Of a DNA stretch of 64,000 nucleotides, positions 93 through 7,217 are shown piece after piece. The notes below the pieces were generated by a model, which saw only the letters and a program-made list of their open reading frames with translations, was not told the DNA's origin and did not search any database. Origin of the DNA: Desulfuromonas sp. CSMB_57 (GTDB lineage: Bacteria; Desulfobacterota; Desulfuromonadia; Desulfuromonadales; Syntrophotaleaceae). Position numbers and translations under genes: made by a program. The DNA lies in assembly GCF_020194955.2 (NCBI RefSeq), contig NZ_JAFCIY020000006.1:1-64000 (forward strand), given 5' to 3'. Each line of letters starts with the position of its first letter. Positions within the stretch are counted from its first letter, which is position 1.

Positions 93-1850
93 ATGTCTAT
101 GATGAAGATAACCATCGATGGTAAAACCACGGAAGTGCCGGCCGGCAGCACGGTTCTCGACGCCGCCAAGCAGCTGGACATCCACATTCCGACCCTCTGC
201 TTTCTGCAGATGGAGGATATGAAATTCAACAACATGGTCGCCTCCTGCCGCGTCTGCGTGGTGGAGATCGACGGCCGCCGCAACCTGGCACCGGCCTGTG
301 CCACGCCGGTCATGGACGGCATGGTGGTCAAGTCCAACACCATCCGCGTGCTGAATGCCCGCCGTACGGTGCTGGAACTGCTGCTGTCCGACCATCCGAA
401 GGACTGCCTGGTCTGCGCCAAGTCCGGCGAATGCGAACTGCAGGATCTGTCCGAGTATTTCGGTCTGCGGGAAATCGGCGTGGCCGGCGAAATGTCCACC
501 TACCGCAAGGACATCTCTCCGTCCATCATCCGCGATATGGACAAATGCATCCTCTGCCGCCGTTGCGAAACCATGTGCAACGAAGTTCAGACCTGCGGCG
601 TTCTGTCCGGCGTGAATCGCGGCTTCTCCGCCGTCGTGGCTCCGGCCTTCGAGATGAATCTGTATGATTCCGTGTGCACCAACTGTGGTCAGTGCACCCA
701 GGTTTGCCCGGTGGGCGCCCTGGTGGAAAACGACCACACCTGGAAGGTCATCGACGCCATCGCCGATCCGGACAAAGTGACCGTGGTTCAGACCGCCCCG
801 GCCGTGCGCGCCGCCCTGGGCGAAGCCTGCGGCATGGCCCCCGGCCAGAGCTTCACCGGCAAGATGGCGGCCGCTCTGCGTCGCCTCGGTTTCGACCATG
901 TGTTCGATACCGACTTCGCCGCCGACCTGACCATCATGGAAGAGGGCTCCGAGTTCCTGGATCGCCTGCAGCGCTTCCTGGATGGCGACAAATCGGTCAA
1001 ATTGCCCATCATGACCTCCTGCTGCCCGGGTTGGGTGAAGTTTTTCGAGCATCAGTTCCCGGACCTGCTCGATATCCCCTCCACCGCCAAGTCGCCGCAG
1101 CAGATGTTCGGCGCCATCGCCAAGAGCTACTATGCCGAACTGCTCGGCATTCCGCGCGAGAAGATGGTTGTGGTTTCGGTCATGCCTTGCCTGGCCAAAA
1201 AATACGAGTGCTCCCGTCCGGAATTTGCCGTCAACGGCAATCCCGACGTCGACATCGTCATTTCGACCCGCGAACTCGGTCATCTGATCAAAAGGATGAA
1301 CATCGATTTCGACAAACTGCCCGATGAGGACTTCGACAATCCTCTGGGCGCCTCCACCGGCGCCGCGCCGATTTTCGGCAACAGCGGCGGCGTTATGGAA
1401 GCGGCGCTGCGCACCGCCTACGAACTGGCCACCGGCGAAACCCTCGCCAAAGTCGAGTTTGAAGCCGTGCGTACCCTGCATGGCGTGAAAACCGCTTCCG
1501 TACAGGTCGGTCCCCACACCCTGAATCTGGGTGTGGCCAGCGGTCTGGGCAACGCCCGCGAACTGCTGGAACTGGTACGCAAGGGCGACAAGCAGTTCCA
1601 TATCATCGAGATCATGGCCTGCCCCGGCGGTTGCGTCGGTGGCGGTGGTCAGCCCTATCACCATGGGGATATGGAAATCATCGCCAAGCGCAACCAGGTT
1701 CTCTACGAAGAAGACGCCGGCAAGCCGCTGCGCAAATCCCATGAGAACCCCTACATCATCGAACTTTACGAAAAATATCTGGGCAAACCGCTCAGCGAAA
1801 AAGCGCATCACCTGCTGCACACTCACTACTTCAAGCGTCAGCAGCTCTAA
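93..1850 (+). CDS. hydA: [FeFe]-hydrogenase catalytic subunit HydA (NADH-linked type)
   Basis: 585 residues. It reversibly reduces protons to H2 at the H-cluster, probably as the catalytic subunit of a cytoplasmic multimeric NAD(H)/ferredoxin-linked enzyme. In order: N-terminal [2Fe-2S] domain (PTLC at 33-36, Cx2C near 52), a His-ligated cluster domain (HPKDCLVC near 103-110), two [4Fe-4S] motifs (CILCRRCETMC and CTNCGQCTQVC), then the H-cluster motifs TSCCPGW (about 308), MPCLAKKYE (about 365) and ACPGGCVGGGGQP (about 509), and the C-terminal small-subunit-like domain. All H-cluster cysteines are present. ATG at 93 has AAAGGAG at 77-83. It follows a NuoF-like gene by 18 bases and ends at a strong terminator. 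Confidence 0.95.
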   Translation: MSMMKITIDGKTTEVPAGSTVLDAAKQLDIHIPTLCFLQMEDMKFNNMVASCRVCVVEIDGRRNLAPACATPVMDGMVVKSNTIRVLNARRTVLELLLSDHPKDCLVCAKSGECELQDLSEYFGLREIGVAGEMSTYRKDISPSIIRDMDKCILCRRCETMCNEVQTCGVLSGVNRGFSAVVAPAFEMNLYDSVCTNCGQCTQVCPVGALVENDHTWKVIDAIADPDKVTVVQTAPAVRAALGEACGMAPGQSFTGKMAAALRRLGFDHVFDTDFAADLTIMEEGSEFLDRLQRFLDGDKSVKLPIMTSCCPGWVKFFEHQFPDLLDIPSTAKSPQQMFGAIAKSYYAELLGIPREKMVVVSVMPCLAKKYECSRPEFAVNGNPDVDIVISTRELGHLIKRMNIDFDKLPDEDFDNPLGASTGAAPIFGNSGGVMEAALRTAYELATGETLAKVEFEAVRTLHGVKTASVQVGPHTLNLGVASGLGNARELLELVRKGDKQFHIIEIMACPGGCVGGGGQPYHHGDMEIIAKRNQVLYEEDAGKPLRKSHENPYIIELYEKYLGKPLSEKAHHLLHTHYFKRQQL

Positions 1851-1878
1851 AAATTCGCTTTTTCATTCGATTCAATCA

Positions 1879-1909
1879 GGCCGGAGGGATTTTCCCTCCG
1901 GCCTTTTTT
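1879..1909 (+). terminator. Rho-independent terminator after hydA
   Basis: An 11-bp perfect stem (GGCCGGAGGGA / TCCCTCCGGCC) with a TTT loop is followed by six T residues. It lies 29 bases after the hydA stop, so the hydrogenase structural genes and the maturation genes form separate transcription units. Confidence 0.93.
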
Positions 1910-1927
1910 CTTGGTAAAATCGGAAAT

Positions 1928-1969
1928 TTGATCTGCATCAAAGAATCTAGATCTTAATTTGATTATGAT
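1928..1969 (+). promoter_or_regulatory. FNR-type box and -10 element upstream of hydE
   Basis: TTGAT-CTGC-ATCAA at 1928-1941 exactly matches the TTGAT-N4-ATCAA consensus of the CRP/FNR superfamily. A -10-like TATGAT lies at 1964-1969. If transcription starts about 7 bases after the -10, near 1976, the box is centred at -41.5, the classical class II activator position. There is no good -35 hexamer, as expected for an activator-dependent promoter. The regulated unit would be hydE-hydG-lyase-hydF. Confidence 0.75.
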
Positions 1970-2037
1970 GTCGCCATGGTGACGGACGAATAACGGCAAC
2001 ACCTTTTTCAACGTTCGACCTTTAAAAGGCAGGTTGT

Positions 2038-3105
2038 ATGGATCGGCAAGAAATGGTGCAGTGGTTACAATGCAACGATGAGGCAGACCTGGAAGTCCTG
2101 CGAAAGCGGGCGGATGCGGTTCGGTCTGCACAGGTAGGCGACGACGTGCATTTGCGCGGTTTGGTGGAATTGTCCAACATCTGTGCGCGGGACTGCCTGT
2201 ATTGCGGCATTCGCGCCGGCAATGCTTCCGTTGCGCGATATCGCATGAGCCGGGAGGAAGTGGTGGCCTGTGCCCGTCTGGCGGTCGACTTCGGTTTCGG
2301 CACCCTGGTGCTGCAGGCCGGGGAGGATCCCGGTCTGACGGGAGCGGTTGTCGCCGATCTCATCAAAGCCATCAAGCAGGAAACCGACCTGGCCATCACC
2401 TTGAGTCTCGGCGAACGCGATCTCGAGGACCTGACTGCCTGGCGGCAAGCCGGCGCCGATCGCTATCTGCTGCGCTTTGAGACCTCCAACCGTGAGTTGT
2501 TCCGGTATATCCATCCGCCCCGGGTCGGGCAACCGGAGCGGGACCGCATCGAACATCTCGGCTTGCTGCGCAGCCTGGGATATGAAGTCGGCAGCGGCGT
2601 CATGATCGGCATCCCCGGCCAAAGCTATGATGATCTGGCGCAAGATATCGAGCTATTCAAGGGGTTGGGCCTCGACATGATTGGGGTTGGTCCCTATATT
2701 CCTCACCAGGACACGCCCCTCGGCAAGTCGGGAGGAGTACCGCTGCTCGGCGTAGAACAGCAGGTCCCCAATACCCTGGTCATGGGCTTGAAGGTGGTGG
2801 CCTTGACCCGCATAACCTGCCCGCAGGTCAATATTCCCAGCACCACTGCCCTGGCTACCCTGGACCGTCAGACCGGTCGGGAGCAAGGCCTGAACTGGGG
2901 CGCCAACATCATTATGCCGAACCTGACGCCGGTTCAGTATCGGCGCATGTACGAGATTTATCCCAGCAAGGCAGCCAGCACCGAAACCGCCGAACAGAGT
3001 CGGGACACGGCACTGCGGCAGATTGTCGGCCTCGGGCGGGTTCCCGGGCGTGGTCGTGGCGACTCAAAGCATTTTCAAACATTAAACAGTTTTAAAAATA
3101 ACTAG
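2038..3105 (+). CDS. hydE: [FeFe]-hydrogenase maturase HydE, radical SAM
   Basis: 355 residues. A radical SAM enzyme that acts on the HydG-derived Fe(CO)2(CN)cysteine precursor during assembly of the binuclear H-cluster subsite. The radical SAM cluster motif CARDCLYC has C49, C53 and C56 (CX3CX2C). The BioB-like TIM-barrel features GTLVLQAGED and GIPGQSYDDL follow. ATG at 2038 comes after an AGGCAGG-like ribosome site. It is the first gene of the maturation operon behind the FNR-type box; hydG begins 10 bases after its stop. Length is normal for HydE. Confidence 0.93.
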   Translation: MDRQEMVQWLQCNDEADLEVLRKRADAVRSAQVGDDVHLRGLVELSNICARDCLYCGIRAGNASVARYRMSREEVVACARLAVDFGFGTLVLQAGEDPGLTGAVVADLIKAIKQETDLAITLSLGERDLEDLTAWRQAGADRYLLRFETSNRELFRYIHPPRVGQPERDRIEHLGLLRSLGYEVGSGVMIGIPGQSYDDLAQDIELFKGLGLDMIGVGPYIPHQDTPLGKSGGVPLLGVEQQVPNTLVMGLKVVALTRITCPQVNIPSTTALATLDRQTGREQGLNWGANIIMPNLTPVQYRRMYEIYPSKAASTETAEQSRDTALRQIVGLGRVPGRGRGDSKHFQTLNSFKNN

Positions 3106-3115
3106 GGGGTCAATC

Positions 3116-4540
3116 ATGTGCGCATTGCCGGCAATGACTTTGAGTAGGGAAGCGGTGGATTTCATCGATGAAAATTATCTCAACAGCCTGTTGGGGCAAA
3201 GCCGACCCTCCGCCGCAAGGGTTCGGGAAATCATCGCCAAGAGTCTAGCCAAGGAAGCTCTTTCGGTTGAAGAGACGGCCGTTCTGTTGCTGGCCGAGGA
3301 TCCGGAACTGCTCGAGGAAATCTTCGCCGCCGCCAGGCAGCTCAAAGAGACCGTATACGGAAATCGCATCGTGTTGTTTGCGCCCCTATACATCGGCAAC
3401 GACTGTATCAACGACTGTACCTACTGTGCCTTCAAGCGTTCCAATTTCCAGGCCGTGCGGCGCACTCTGACCCCCGACGAAATCAGGCAGCAAGTGACCG
3501 CCCTGGAAGACAAGGGGCACAAGCGGCTGATTTTGGTATTTGGCGAACATGCCAAATATGACGCCGATTTCATTGCCGATACGGTGCGCAACGTTTATTC
3601 CGTGCGCTCCGGACATGGGGAAATACGGCGTGTCAACATCAATGCCGCGCCCCTCGACCATGAAGGCTATCGCAAGGTCAAAGAAGCCGGCATCGGCACC
3701 TATCAGATCTTCATGGAGACCTATCACCATGAAACCTATTCCCGGGTCCATTCCCACAAGACCCGCAAGGGCGACTACCTCTATCGCCTGGACGGCCTGA
3801 GCCGGGCGTTTGAAGCCGGGTGCGACGATGTCGGTCTCGGCGTGCTGTTCGGGCTATACGACTGGCGATTCGAGGTGCTGGGCATGGTTCGACATGCCCT
3901 GTACCTGCAGGAGCGCTTCAACGTCGGGCCTCATACCCTGAGCTTTCCGCGTTTGCGGCCCGCCCACGGCGTGGATTTCGATGAACGTTACTTCGTCGAT
4001 GATGATCAATTCAAGCGGGTCATCGCCATTTTGCGCCTGGCGGTCCCCTATACCGGCCTGATTCTCACCGCACGAGAAAAACCTGAGTTGCGGCGGGAGC
4101 TTTTGTCCTTTGGCGTTTCGCAGATCGATGCCGGGAGTCGTATCGAACTGGGCGGCTACACCGAGGCCGGCGACGCCCAGGTCATGGAGCGGGAACAGTT
4201 TTCCCTGGGAGATATCCGCTCCCTGGACGAGGTCATGCGGGAACTGATGGCGGACGGCTATGTCCCCAGCTTCTGTACCTCCTGTTATCGCAGCGGCCGC
4301 ACCGGCGAACATTTCATGGAGTTCTCCATCCCCGGTTTCATCAAACGCTTCTGTACCCCCAACGCGCTGCTGACTTTGGAGGAATATCTGGCTGACTATG
4401 CCTCGCCGGAAACCCGCGCCGTGGGCGAAAGGCTGCTGGCCGACGAACTGGCCAAGATGGAAGAGGGCGAGATGAAGGAACGTACCTTGAAACAGCTGGC
4501 CGCCATCCGGGACAAGGGCACCCGGGATCTCTATTTCTAG
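3116..4540 (+). CDS. hydG: [FeFe]-hydrogenase maturase HydG, radical SAM tyrosine lyase
   Basis: 474 residues. HydG cleaves tyrosine to make CO and cyanide ligands on a dangler iron. The radical SAM motif CINDCTYC has C97, C101 and C104. The C-terminal second-cluster motif CX2CX22C (CTSC near 386-389, last Cys about 412) is intact and separates HydG from the related ThiH. AGGGGGT precedes ATG at 3116. Located between hydE and an aspartase-like gene, as expected for a hyd maturation operon. Confidence 0.94.
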   Translation: MCALPAMTLSREAVDFIDENYLNSLLGQSRPSAARVREIIAKSLAKEALSVEETAVLLLAEDPELLEEIFAAARQLKETVYGNRIVLFAPLYIGNDCINDCTYCAFKRSNFQAVRRTLTPDEIRQQVTALEDKGHKRLILVFGEHAKYDADFIADTVRNVYSVRSGHGEIRRVNINAAPLDHEGYRKVKEAGIGTYQIFMETYHHETYSRVHSHKTRKGDYLYRLDGLSRAFEAGCDDVGLGVLFGLYDWRFEVLGMVRHALYLQERFNVGPHTLSFPRLRPAHGVDFDERYFVDDDQFKRVIAILRLAVPYTGLILTAREKPELRRELLSFGVSQIDAGSRIELGGYTEAGDAQVMEREQFSLGDIRSLDEVMRELMADGYVPSFCTSCYRSGRTGEHFMEFSIPGFIKRFCTPNALLTLEEYLADYASPETRAVGERLLADELAKMEEGEMKERTLKQLAAIRDKGTRDLYF

Positions 4541-4554
4541 TAGCGGCGGTGACC

Positions 4555-5967
4555 ATGCCTGAATTCAGAACCGAATCGGATCTGCTCGGTCCCTGTCCGG
4601 TGCCGGCCGCCGTCCTCTACGGGGTACATACCGTCCGGGCCCTGGAAAACTTCCCGGTCAGCAGGCGTCCCGTCAACCGAGCCCTGATCCAGGGCTTCGG
4701 GGCGGTCAAGCTGGCGGCGGTCCGGACCAACCTGGAACTGGGCTTTTTGGCCGCTGCCGAGGGTGAAGCTCTGGTTGCTGCCTGTGAAGAACTGGCGGCG
4801 GGTCTGCTCAACGAACATATCGTGGTGGATGCCCTGCAGGGCGGCGCGGGAACCTCCACCAACATGAACGTCAATGAGGTTCTGGCCAATCGCGCCCTGC
4901 AGCGTCTCGGTCATCCCCTGGGGAGCTATGAAATCATTAGTCCCCTGGAGGACGTGAACCTCCATCAGTCAACCAACGACACCTATCCGACGGCTTTGAA
5001 GGTGGCGGCCATTACCCGTCTGCGGCAGCTTGAGCGGGAGATCGTGGCTTTGCTGGAAGCATTCCAGGAGCAGGAAAAGGCCACGGCCCATATCGTCAAG
5101 GTGGGACGGACCCAGTTGCAGGATGCGGCGCTGACCACCGTCGGCAGGGAGATGGCCGCTTATGCCGAGGCCTTCGGCCGGGATCGTTGGCGGATTTACA
5201 AATGTGAAGAGCGGTTGCGGGTCGTCAATCTCGGCGGCACCGCCATCGGCACCGGCCTGGGAGCTCCCCGGCAATACATTTTTCGTGTCGTCGAGCAGTT
5301 GCGGGCCATCACCGGCCTCGGCCTGGCCAGAGCGGAGAACCTGGTGGAAGCGACTCAGAACGCCGATGTATTTGTCGAGGTAAGCGGCATTCTCAAGGCG
5401 CTCGCGGTCAACCTGATGAAGGTCTCCGGGGATTTGCGTCTGCTTTCCTCCGGTCCGGACGCCGGCCTCGGAGAAATTCTGCTGCCGGCTCGGCAGGCCG
5501 GTTCCTCCATCATGCCGGGGAAAGTCAATCCGGTTATTCCGGAGGCGGTCATCCAGGCAGCCATGGTGGTGCAGGGCCACGACCAGGTCATCGCTCAGGC
5601 CTGTGCTCTGGGCAGCCTGGAGCTGAATCCCTTTCTCCCCGTGGTCGCCGATGCCCTGCTGGACAGCCTTGACCTGCTCGAAGGGGCCTGCAGCATTCTG
5701 CGTCGGCACTGTGTGGAATCGTTGCGCGTCGATGAAGCGCGCTGCCGGGCCCAGGTTGAAAACGCAACGGCCAGTGTAACCGCCCTGGTGGAGAAGATCG
5801 GATATCATCAGGCGACGGCTCTGGTGCAGCAGGCCCGCAGCAAAGGTTGCGGGCTGCGGGCCATGGCCCTGGAGAACAGCTTAATTTCTGCAGAAGAATT
5901 TGACGAACTGACCTCCCCGGAGAGCGTGACCCGACTCGGGTCCCCCGTACAAAGGAAACGGCAATGA
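4555..5967 (+). CDS. Aspartase/fumarase-superfamily lyase inside the hyd operon (aspartate ammonia-lyase-like)
   Basis: About 470 residues. Visible signatures: the family motif GSSIMPGKVNPVIPEA, the aspartase-like GGAGTSTNMNVNEVLANRAL, the substrate-site STND (QSTNDTYPT), and VGRTQLQDA plus NLGGTAIGTGL, which look more like AspA than FumC. Likely reaction: L-aspartate to fumarate and ammonia. It sits between hydG and hydF, and its last four bases overlap the hydF ATG, so it is translationally coupled to hydF. A role as ammonia donor for the amine of the H-cluster dithiolate bridge is inference. ATG 4555 is used; an in-frame GTG lies at 4549. Argininosuccinate lyase-like or fumarase activity is possible but less likely. 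Confidence 0.87.
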   Translation: MPEFRTESDLLGPCPVPAAVLYGVHTVRALENFPVSRRPVNRALIQGFGAVKLAAVRTNLELGFLAAAEGEALVAACEELAAGLLNEHIVVDALQGGAGTSTNMNVNEVLANRALQRLGHPLGSYEIISPLEDVNLHQSTNDTYPTALKVAAITRLRQLEREIVALLEAFQEQEKATAHIVKVGRTQLQDAALTTVGREMAAYAEAFGRDRWRIYKCEERLRVVNLGGTAIGTGLGAPRQYIFRVVEQLRAITGLGLARAENLVEATQNADVFVEVSGILKALAVNLMKVSGDLRLLSSGPDAGLGEILLPARQAGSSIMPGKVNPVIPEAVIQAAMVVQGHDQVIAQACALGSLELNPFLPVVADALLDSLDLLEGACSILRRHCVESLRVDEARCRAQVENATASVTALVEKIGYHQATALVQQARSKGCGLRAMALENSLISAEEFDELTSPESVTRLGSPVQRKRQ

Positions 5968-7217
5968 AAACAACCCCCAAAGGCATGCGGCTGCATATCG
6001 GCCTGTTCGGTCGGCGCAATGTCGGCAAATCCTCACTGCTCAATGCCTTGACCCGCCAGCAGGTCTCCATCGTCTCCCATGTAGCCGGGACCACGACCGA
6101 CGTGGTGGAAAAGCCCATGGAGATGCTGCCTATCGGTCCGGTGCTGTTTCTCGATACCGCCGGCATCGACGATGTGGGCGCCCTCGGGGAAATGCGGGTT
6201 CAAAAAACCCGGCAGGTTTTCGATCGGACCGATATCGCCCTGATCGTGGCAGAAGCCGGTCAATGGGGGGAATTCGAGGCGGCGCTGCTTAAGGAAATGC
6301 AGGAACGCGACCTGCCGGTAGTGGTGGTTTTCAATAAGATCGATGCACTTCAGCCGAACCCCGACCATTTGCAGCAGCTTTCCGCACAGCAGGTACCCTG
6401 GGTGCAAACCGCTGCGGAACAGGGTGCCGGGATCCTGGAACTGCGGGAAGCCCTGATTCGCACGGTGCCGGATGAATTCATCAATCCGCCCACCATACTC
6501 GGCGACTTGGTGCCGCCCGGCGAATTGGCCGTGCTGGTGGTCCCCATCGACCTGGAAGCCCCCAAGGGGCGGTTGATTCTGCCCCAGGTCCAGGCCATCC
6601 GCGACCTGCTGGATAACGATGCCTATTGCCTGGTGGTCAAGGAACGCGAGTTGCGCGATGCCCTGGAACGCCTGAAGGGCCCGCCGGCGGTGGTGGTGAC
6701 TGACTCCCAGGCGTTTCTCAAGGTTGCGGCGGACACGCCGGACGACGTCGCTCTGACCTCCTTTTCCATCCTGTTTGCCCGCTTCAAGGGCGACTTGGTG
6801 GAATATGTGCGCGGCACCCTGGCCATCGAAAATCTGGCGCCCGGAGATAAGATTCTGGTCGCCGAATCCTGCAGCCATCATCCCATCGGTGAAGACATCG
6901 GCAGGGTCAAGATTCCCCGCTGGCTGCAACAGTATGTGGGCGGAAAACTGGATTTCACCCATGTGCAGGGTCACGACTTTCCCGAGGACCTGAGGCCGTA
7001 TCGCATGGTCATCAGTTGCGGTTCCTGCATGTGGAACCGCCGCGAGGTACTGGCCCGGCAATTGCGCTGCCAGCAGGCCGGTGTCCCCTGCAGCAACTAT
7101 GGGCTGACCATCGCCTATTCTTTGGGGATTTTTGAACGCGCCCTGAAACCTTTTCCGTCCGCCTATGACGCCTATCGCGAAGCGATGGGGAATCCCCAAT
7201 CGGTTTTCGCCGGTTAG
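5964..7217 (+). CDS. hydF: [FeFe]-hydrogenase maturation GTPase HydF
   Basis: 417 residues. HydF is the GTPase scaffold on which the 2Fe subcluster is completed and passed to apo-HydA. The N-terminal Era/TrmE-like GTPase domain shows the P-loop GRRNVGKS at 16-23, DTAG (switch II) and NKID. The C-terminal cluster-binding part has a CxH near 303-305 and CGSC near 352-355. The residue before CxxC is Ser, where many HydF proteins carry His (HCxxC), so the fourth cluster ligand may differ. ATG overlaps the preceding stop (ATGA). The stop converges with the GGDEF-EAL gene nine bases away. Confidence 0.93.
   Translation: MKTTPKGMRLHIGLFGRRNVGKSSLLNALTRQQVSIVSHVAGTTTDVVEKPMEMLPIGPVLFLDTAGIDDVGALGEMRVQKTRQVFDRTDIALIVAEAGQWGEFEAALLKEMQERDLPVVVVFNKIDALQPNPDHLQQLSAQQVPWVQTAAEQGAGILELREALIRTVPDEFINPPTILGDLVPPGELAVLVVPIDLEAPKGRLILPQVQAIRDLLDNDAYCLVVKERELRDALERLKGPPAVVVTDSQAFLKVAADTPDDVALTSFSILFARFKGDLVEYVRGTLAIENLAPGDKILVAESCSHHPIGEDIGRVKIPRWLQQYVGGKLDFTHVQGHDFPEDLRPYRMVISCGSCMWNRREVLARQLRCQQAGVPCSNYGLTIAYSLGIFERALKPFPSAYDAYREAMGNPQSVFAG

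Follow-up and report, generated by a model that had tools for sequence, protein, structure and literature searches.

Genes for aspartate ammonia-lyase (aspartase, AspA) have been found in association with operons for the maturation of [FeFe]-hydrogenase. Pagnier et al. (2024; PMC11736057) observed by electron-nuclear double resonance (ENDOR) that 15N-aspartate together with Escherichia coli AspA labels the bridge in vitro, described aspA as associated with hyd operons close to hydF, and found at least one of aspA, ilvA and sdaA within 20 open reading frames (ORFs) of 701 of 887 hydF genes. In Pelobacter carbinolicus, aspA was placed between hydG and hydF in a 2012 report (PMC3543383), and in Sulfurospirillum cavolei an aspartase gene lies amid hydG, hydE and hydF (PMC4794192). 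The last step of the published route employs aminomethyl-lipoyl-H-protein, made by T-protein (PMC11736057, PMC12752695, PMC13360658, PMC13339137); formaldehyde can replace serine and serine hydroxymethyltransferase in the defined maturation mixture (PMC13339137), which still contains the glycine cleavage T-protein. Here we describe an aspartase gene in a 64,000-nucleotide stretch of DNA from Desulfuromonas sp. CSMB_57 (contig NZ_JAFCIY020000006.1, positions 1 to 64,000; hereafter the window), whose product probably belongs to a lineage of aspartate ammonia-lyases devoted to the maturation of [FeFe]-hydrogenase, its ammonia becoming the amine nitrogen of the bridge on HydF. This is supported by an aspartase-type active site, by membership of a single clade, and by adjacency to and co-inheritance with hydF. 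In view of the three reports named above, neither the hyd-operon aspA nor the idea of nitrogen supply is new; what is added here is the monophyly and signature of these enzymes, their tight fit to HydF, their frequent absence, and a genome without a visible enzyme for the next step.

The first base of the window is also the first base of a genome contig, and the final codons of an upstream gene were read by eye at its start, ahead of hydA. The genes hydA, hydE, hydG, aspA and hydF follow one another on a single strand, each hyd product exceeding the cut-off of the corresponding NCBIfam model:

93–1850, + strand: hydA, catalytic subunit of a group A6 [FeFe] hydrogenase (NF040763, 890 bits, cut-off 765)
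1878–1904, + strand: terminator-like hairpin between hydA and hydE, a 12-pair stem followed by TTTTTT (consensus scan)
2038–3105, + strand: hydE, radical SAM maturase (TIGR03956, 318 bits, cut-off 255)
3116–4540, + strand: hydG, radical SAM maturase (TIGR03955, 492 bits, cut-off 312)
4555–5967, + strand: aspA, hyd-linked aspartate ammonia-lyase of 470 amino acids (NF008909, residues, clade signature, predicted fold)
5964–5967, + strand: ATGA overlap of the aspA stop and the hydF start (sequence)
5964–7217, + strand: hydF, GTPase scaffold maturase (TIGR03918, 549 bits, cut-off 326)

The aspA frame is intact, with a GTG start at 4549 or an ATG start at 4555, the latter giving the 470 residues, which confirms the placement of an aspartase-type lyase between hydG and hydF in the initial annotation of this DNA. 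The genes hydE and hydG are separated by 10 bases and hydG and aspA by 14, whereas aspA and hydF overlap, the TGA of aspA occupying 5965–5967 and the ATG of hydF 5964–5966. From this overlap we infer the translational coupling of the two genes that was asserted initially. As the hairpin between hydA and hydE is followed by a run of T, hydE-hydG-aspA-hydF may form a separate transcription unit; between 1700 and 7400 eight terminator-like sites were found against 6.2 expected by shuffling, which is weak in itself, and the hairpin has the longest stem of the eight, the remaining stems being of 5 or 6 pairs. As in the hyd operons of Pagnier et al., the aspartase gene adjoins hydF and is a proposed source of bridge ammonia. 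It shares its position between hydG and hydF with the gene in the hndD2 cluster of P. carbinolicus, which differs in that hydE is present in three copies, one of which lies 3' of hndD2 (PMC3543383), and the company of hydG, hydE and hydF with that of S. cavolei, where the order is hydG-aspA-hydE-hydF (PMC4794192).

The window AspA scores 605.3 bits against the NCBIfam subfamily model NF008909 ‘aspartate ammonia-lyase’ (cut-off 510) and carries the motifs GGAGTSTNMN, QSTND and GSSIMPGKVNP, in agreement with the aspartase signatures noted initially. In GGAGT and QSTND it has the letters of E. coli AspA where E. coli FumC has TGSGT and QSSND, and it likewise agrees with E. coli AspA (b4139) at T100, S139, T140, N141, T186, S317, K323 and N325, eight positions which we take to be catalytic or substrate-binding from their roles in E. 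coli FumC and in AspB of Bacillus sp. YM55-1. The first seven are invariant in the 99 rows of the hyd-linked clade described below, and N325 is found in 98 of the 99. With 467.7 bits the protein does not reach the cut-off of the stricter equivalog TIGR00839 (aspA; 681.2 bits) and is therefore filed as aspartase-type at subfamily level rather than as that equivalog. It also falls short of the class II fumarase model TIGR00979 (400.6 against 664.75 bits), both fumarase models being missed by more than 260 bits. A second close homolog in the genome (C47:37179–38564) is fumarase-like, with TGSGTSTNMN and QSSND and with TIGR00979 as its top-scoring model, though under the cut-off; since it too passes NF008909, this model alone does not exclude a fumarase. 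On scores and motifs taken together we reject both a fumarase and an argininosuccinate-type enzyme for the window protein, whose sequence is aspartase-type.

An AlphaFold model of the protein (predicted local distance difference test 91.7, predicted template modelling score 0.90) has the aspartase/fumarase fold, which is common to the housekeeping aspartases of E. coli and of Bacillus sp. YM55-1, the comparison with the latter being limited to structure and pairwise alignment. Its comparison with 8rj0 gave Z 46.9 and a root mean square deviation of 2.1 over 461 residues, and the top seven PDB matches are aspartases. As many fumarases follow only some 1–3 Z lower, up to Z 45.9, and E. coli AspA (1jsw) ranks 49th with Z 43.2, the fold cannot separate aspartase from fumarase. 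A related lyase acting on malate or another succinyl compound would accord with the missed TIGR00839 cut-off and with the position equivalent to H188 of FumC, which is occupied by E in 52 of the 99 clade rows and by Q in the other 47. Such an enzyme is, however, very improbable given that Q at this position occurs in E. coli AspA as well, that the aspartase letters replace those of FumC in both motifs, and that the two fumarase models are missed so widely.

In a tree of AspA homologs all 70 thinned hyd rows fell on one side of a branch with a Shimodaira–Hasegawa-like approximate likelihood ratio (SH-aLRT) support of 97 and the 31 other rows outside it, the canonical aspartases, including that of E. 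coli, lying outside the hyd clade and the fumarases further away. The tree was obtained by a quick search without bootstrap from 132 rows thinned to 101, the short row L099 being excluded and three rows with a stop within the matched stretch (L097, L132 and L190) being cut there beforehand. Sister to the clade is an aspartase-like protein (L060, G182:C44) from a genome in which no HydF reached the cut-off; the gene downstream of it was judged by eye to be of acyl-CoA synthetase type. By their sequences, the hyd-linked aspartases thus form one clade apart from the sampled housekeeping aspartases and fumarases, of which no prior description was found in literature text, figures and supplements aside.

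The clade bears a near-private signature that E. coli AspA lacks: Q171, E174, W212, E219 and R220 occur in 99 of 99 rows, and K216 and R222 in 97% and 96%, respectively. Nine positions qualified as clade-specific, the remaining two being R259 (90%) and position 363, which is L in the clade and V in the window protein. The signature was found in all 20 hyd-linked rows of a whole-protein search of the phylum and in all four new ones from a corresponding search of Clostridia, and was absent from the other 10 and 16 loci of these searches and from 23 further homologs. We also looked for housekeeping aspartases recruited repeatedly to the vicinity of hydF, and no instance occurred among the matches listed for the 247-genome phylum sample and the 68 Clostridia genomes with HydF; the nearest non-clade homologs among them lie ~129 kb (G109, phylum) and ~37 kb (G378, Clostridia) from hydF. 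In the predicted model Q171 and E174 are near the end of helix H140–176, W212 to R220 at the end of H196–220 and R222 directly past the latter. Located in this way where two long helices end, the clade-private residues resemble a contact patch, as would be expected if the aspartase acted on HydF directly or physically, either by providing ammonium as a GTPase-stimulating monovalent cation or within an ammonia-handing complex; the same residues could be structural, and we regard such direct action as unlikely.

In the phylum sample of 247 genomes, HydF was found over the cut-off in 28 (a split gene in G093 being uncounted) and an AspA at least 49% identical to that of the window in 20, the next homologs following at 45% identity. 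All 20 belong to the 28 with HydF (hypergeometric probability 2e-23, kinship among the genomes being ignored), and in each the gene lies within ~7 kb of hydF, so that its placement there is not due to chance. Linked AspA is absent from the other 8 of the 28. In a sample of 99 Clostridia, HydF was found in 68 genomes and a linked aspartase in five, among them the survey centre (G272), which had been chosen for having one; the other 63 had no linked aspartase at E 1e-60, the level to which the Clostridia matches were listed. Linked aspA, whose frequency in hyd operons was a point raised by the initial annotation, is present in 20 of 28 and 5 of 68 genomes with HydF in the two samples. In the class of a Bacteroidota locus (L078) HydF occurs in 2 of 60 genomes, the survey centre included, and the other of the two (G321) was added to the Clostridia protein search and the HydF tree.

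A wider view is given by 80 named loci, the best 80 of 588, which were found with patterns drawn from the clade itself and for this reason cannot show the absence of linked aspartases outside it; both whole-protein searches are free of this bias. At least one of hydE, hydF and hydG was present within the stretch in 70 of the 80, and hydF itself in 64. Among the remaining 10, eight belong to genomes with HydF elsewhere, one (L123) has hydA directly upstream of aspA, and no HydF match was found for an FCPU426 metagenome genome (L098). The loci span 14 named phyla, seven being without a phylum name, and AspA and HydF co-occur in 13 once FCPU426 is excluded. The start of hydF lies no more than ~150 bp downstream of aspA in 55 of the 64 loci that include hydF (52 counted by script, plus L072, L079 and L080, in which the genes touch or overlap). 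At a Paenibacillus wynnii locus (L118:6762–10677) a hydF match lies on both sides of aspA.

Tree distances of AspA and HydF were correlated with r 0.86 over 62 loci. For the 29 loci with all four proteins, r was 0.90 for AspA and HydF, 0.70 for AspA and HydE and 0.56 for AspA and HydG, and the pairs HydE-HydF and HydG-HydF of the same set gave 0.69 and 0.52; AspA therefore agrees with HydF better than HydG or HydE do. These values and the frequent proximity to hydF bear on the proposal, put forward for P. carbinolicus (PMC3543383), that the enzyme is a catabolic aspartase co-regulated with hydrogen disposal, aspartate being fermented, its electrons passing to H2 and its ammonia serving merely as a nitrogen source. 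Ordinary aspartases would then have been recruited and linked to hydrogenase genes generally, and instead a single clade is tied to hydF, its tree agreement declining from HydF through HydE to HydG and hydF following closely in most named loci, which renders a catabolic role quite improbable.

Mapped on a HydF tree, the presence of AspA requires 15 changes over 92 rows compared with 26 for shuffled labels, and therefore fits an old partner of HydF that was lost many times, though some of the changes may be gains by transfer. The tree holds 92 of 119 rows, including 30 of the 68 Clostridia HydF loci, and a partial (G245) and a split (G093) HydF were left out. So many changes of presence, and the many HydF genomes without linked AspA, are what would be expected of a passenger gene having no functional link to maturation; given co-occurrence over 13 named phyla and the agreement of the AspA and HydF trees, we consider this extremely improbable.

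An exchange of HydG independent of the pair AspA and HydF is suggested by its identity to that of the window, which falls into two bands, 64–71% in eight loci (L065, L067, L069, L072, L075, L076, L079 and L080) and 43–53% elsewhere, whereas the identities of AspA and HydF show no such gap. The hydG match of one of the eight (L072:6584–7991) is in two pieces, possibly through a frameshift or an assembly error. Among the best 80 of the 588 loci the closest named relatives of the window set are largely Planctomycetota (in L065, for example, identities are 58% for hydE, 71% for hydG, 68% for aspA and 72% for hydF), and three genomes of the same order in the phylum sample had no HydF over the cut-off; horizontal transfer of the hyd set (93–7217) is therefore likely.

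Taken together, the sequence data lead us to infer that the window protein is active as an aspartase and delivers its ammonia to HydF in vivo: L-aspartate would be cleaved to fumarate and ammonia, the ammonia would provide the amine nitrogen of the dithiomethylamine bridge, and the bridge would be completed on HydF. For the E. coli enzyme, entry of aspartate nitrogen into the bridge has been demonstrated in vitro by Pagnier et al. (PMC11736057). Several observations weigh against a dedicated maturation aspartase, namely the missed TIGR00839 cut-off, the fold that does not discriminate and the low rank of E. coli AspA among its matches, and the HydF genomes without linked AspA (63 of 68 in Clostridia, 8 of 28 in the phylum), from which it follows that a linked aspartase is not a general requirement and that ammonia can come from elsewhere. 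To these are added two findings on the glycine cleavage proteins, set out below. The initial proposal that an aspartase supplies the bridge nitrogen locally is accordingly supported in part, by the aspartase-type sequence and by the in vitro labelling with the E. coli enzyme; it does not extend to hydrogenase maturation in general, and its simple version is weakened by the lack of H- and T-protein matches in the window genome.

That genome, rated 100% complete, yielded no match to the H-protein model PF01597 at E 0.001 (controls: 13 of 14, 10 over the cut-off), no candidate for the T-protein model TIGR00528 (controls: 10 of 14) and, for the alpha part of SdaA, no match to PF03313, for which only 9 of 14 controls matched; ilvA was outside the search. 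It differs in this from the picture of Pagnier et al., and both H- and T-protein are used by the published route. Both were matched in the three genomes of the same order that had no HydF above the cut-off. They belong to a set of 80 genomes, with 75 having HydF (including 10 of the 68 from Clostridia), G255, and G254, in which hydA, hydG and hydE are present and the contig ends at aspA, hydF lying beyond view. The thresholds for counting a protein as present were E below 1e-15 for H-protein and E up to 0.001 for T-protein, five genomes counted for T-protein having only matches below the cut-off; these were similarity searches with a first filter, and draft or metagenome genomes may lack genes by chance. 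Of the 75 genomes with HydF, 41 have both proteins, 12 only H, one only T and 21, the window genome among them, neither. Thirteen of the 21 are without any H-protein match and eight have weak partial ones, so that the 74 genomes other than that of the window include 12 with neither and eight with weak partial H matches and no T. The eight weak matches, with E values between 4e-8 and 6e-4 and none covering more than 68 of 122 positions, are taken as biotinyl- or lipoyl-type domains of other proteins, and six exceed the Pfam low cut-off of 22.2 bits (G245, G257, G259, G430, G385 and G403). The isolates Clostridium oryzae, C. caldaquaticum and Moorella thermoacetica DSM 21394 are without H or T match, and Desulfoscipio geothermicus has weak partial H matches and no T. 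Both proteins are missing in 17 of 62 genomes with the AspA clade (G254 excluded) and in 4 of 13 without it; presence of the clade thus does not track their absence, and for want of this association we reject the view that AspA generally replaces the glycine cleavage system. No discussion of this gap in the context of maturation was found in the accessible portions of the open-licence literature searched.

A tentative reading, to which we give somewhat less than even weight, is that bacteria such as this one mature [FeFe]-hydrogenase without H- and T-protein, the ammonia of a HydF-dedicated aspartase entering the bridge via another one-carbon donor and aminomethyl-lipoyl-H-protein being one route among several. 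The donor may then be free formaldehyde, methylene-tetrahydrofolate or an unrecognised carrier.

Outside the hyd region, ten long ORFs between 14501 and 54835 of the window were compared with Pfam (E 1e-15). Three had no match, and the other seven are genes usual for a chromosome, namely rmuC, lepA, carB, recG, pnp, infB and one for a Na/Pi cotransporter.

For the origin of the bridge nitrogen an in vitro answer has been published (PMC11736057), and the window operon fits it; a short clade signature marks maturation aspartases. Genomes with HydF and without detectable H- or T-protein, some of them named isolates, provide a test ground for the accepted last step, and if maturation in such bacteria does proceed without these proteins, aminomethyl-lipoyl-H-protein would be no universal fourth maturation component.
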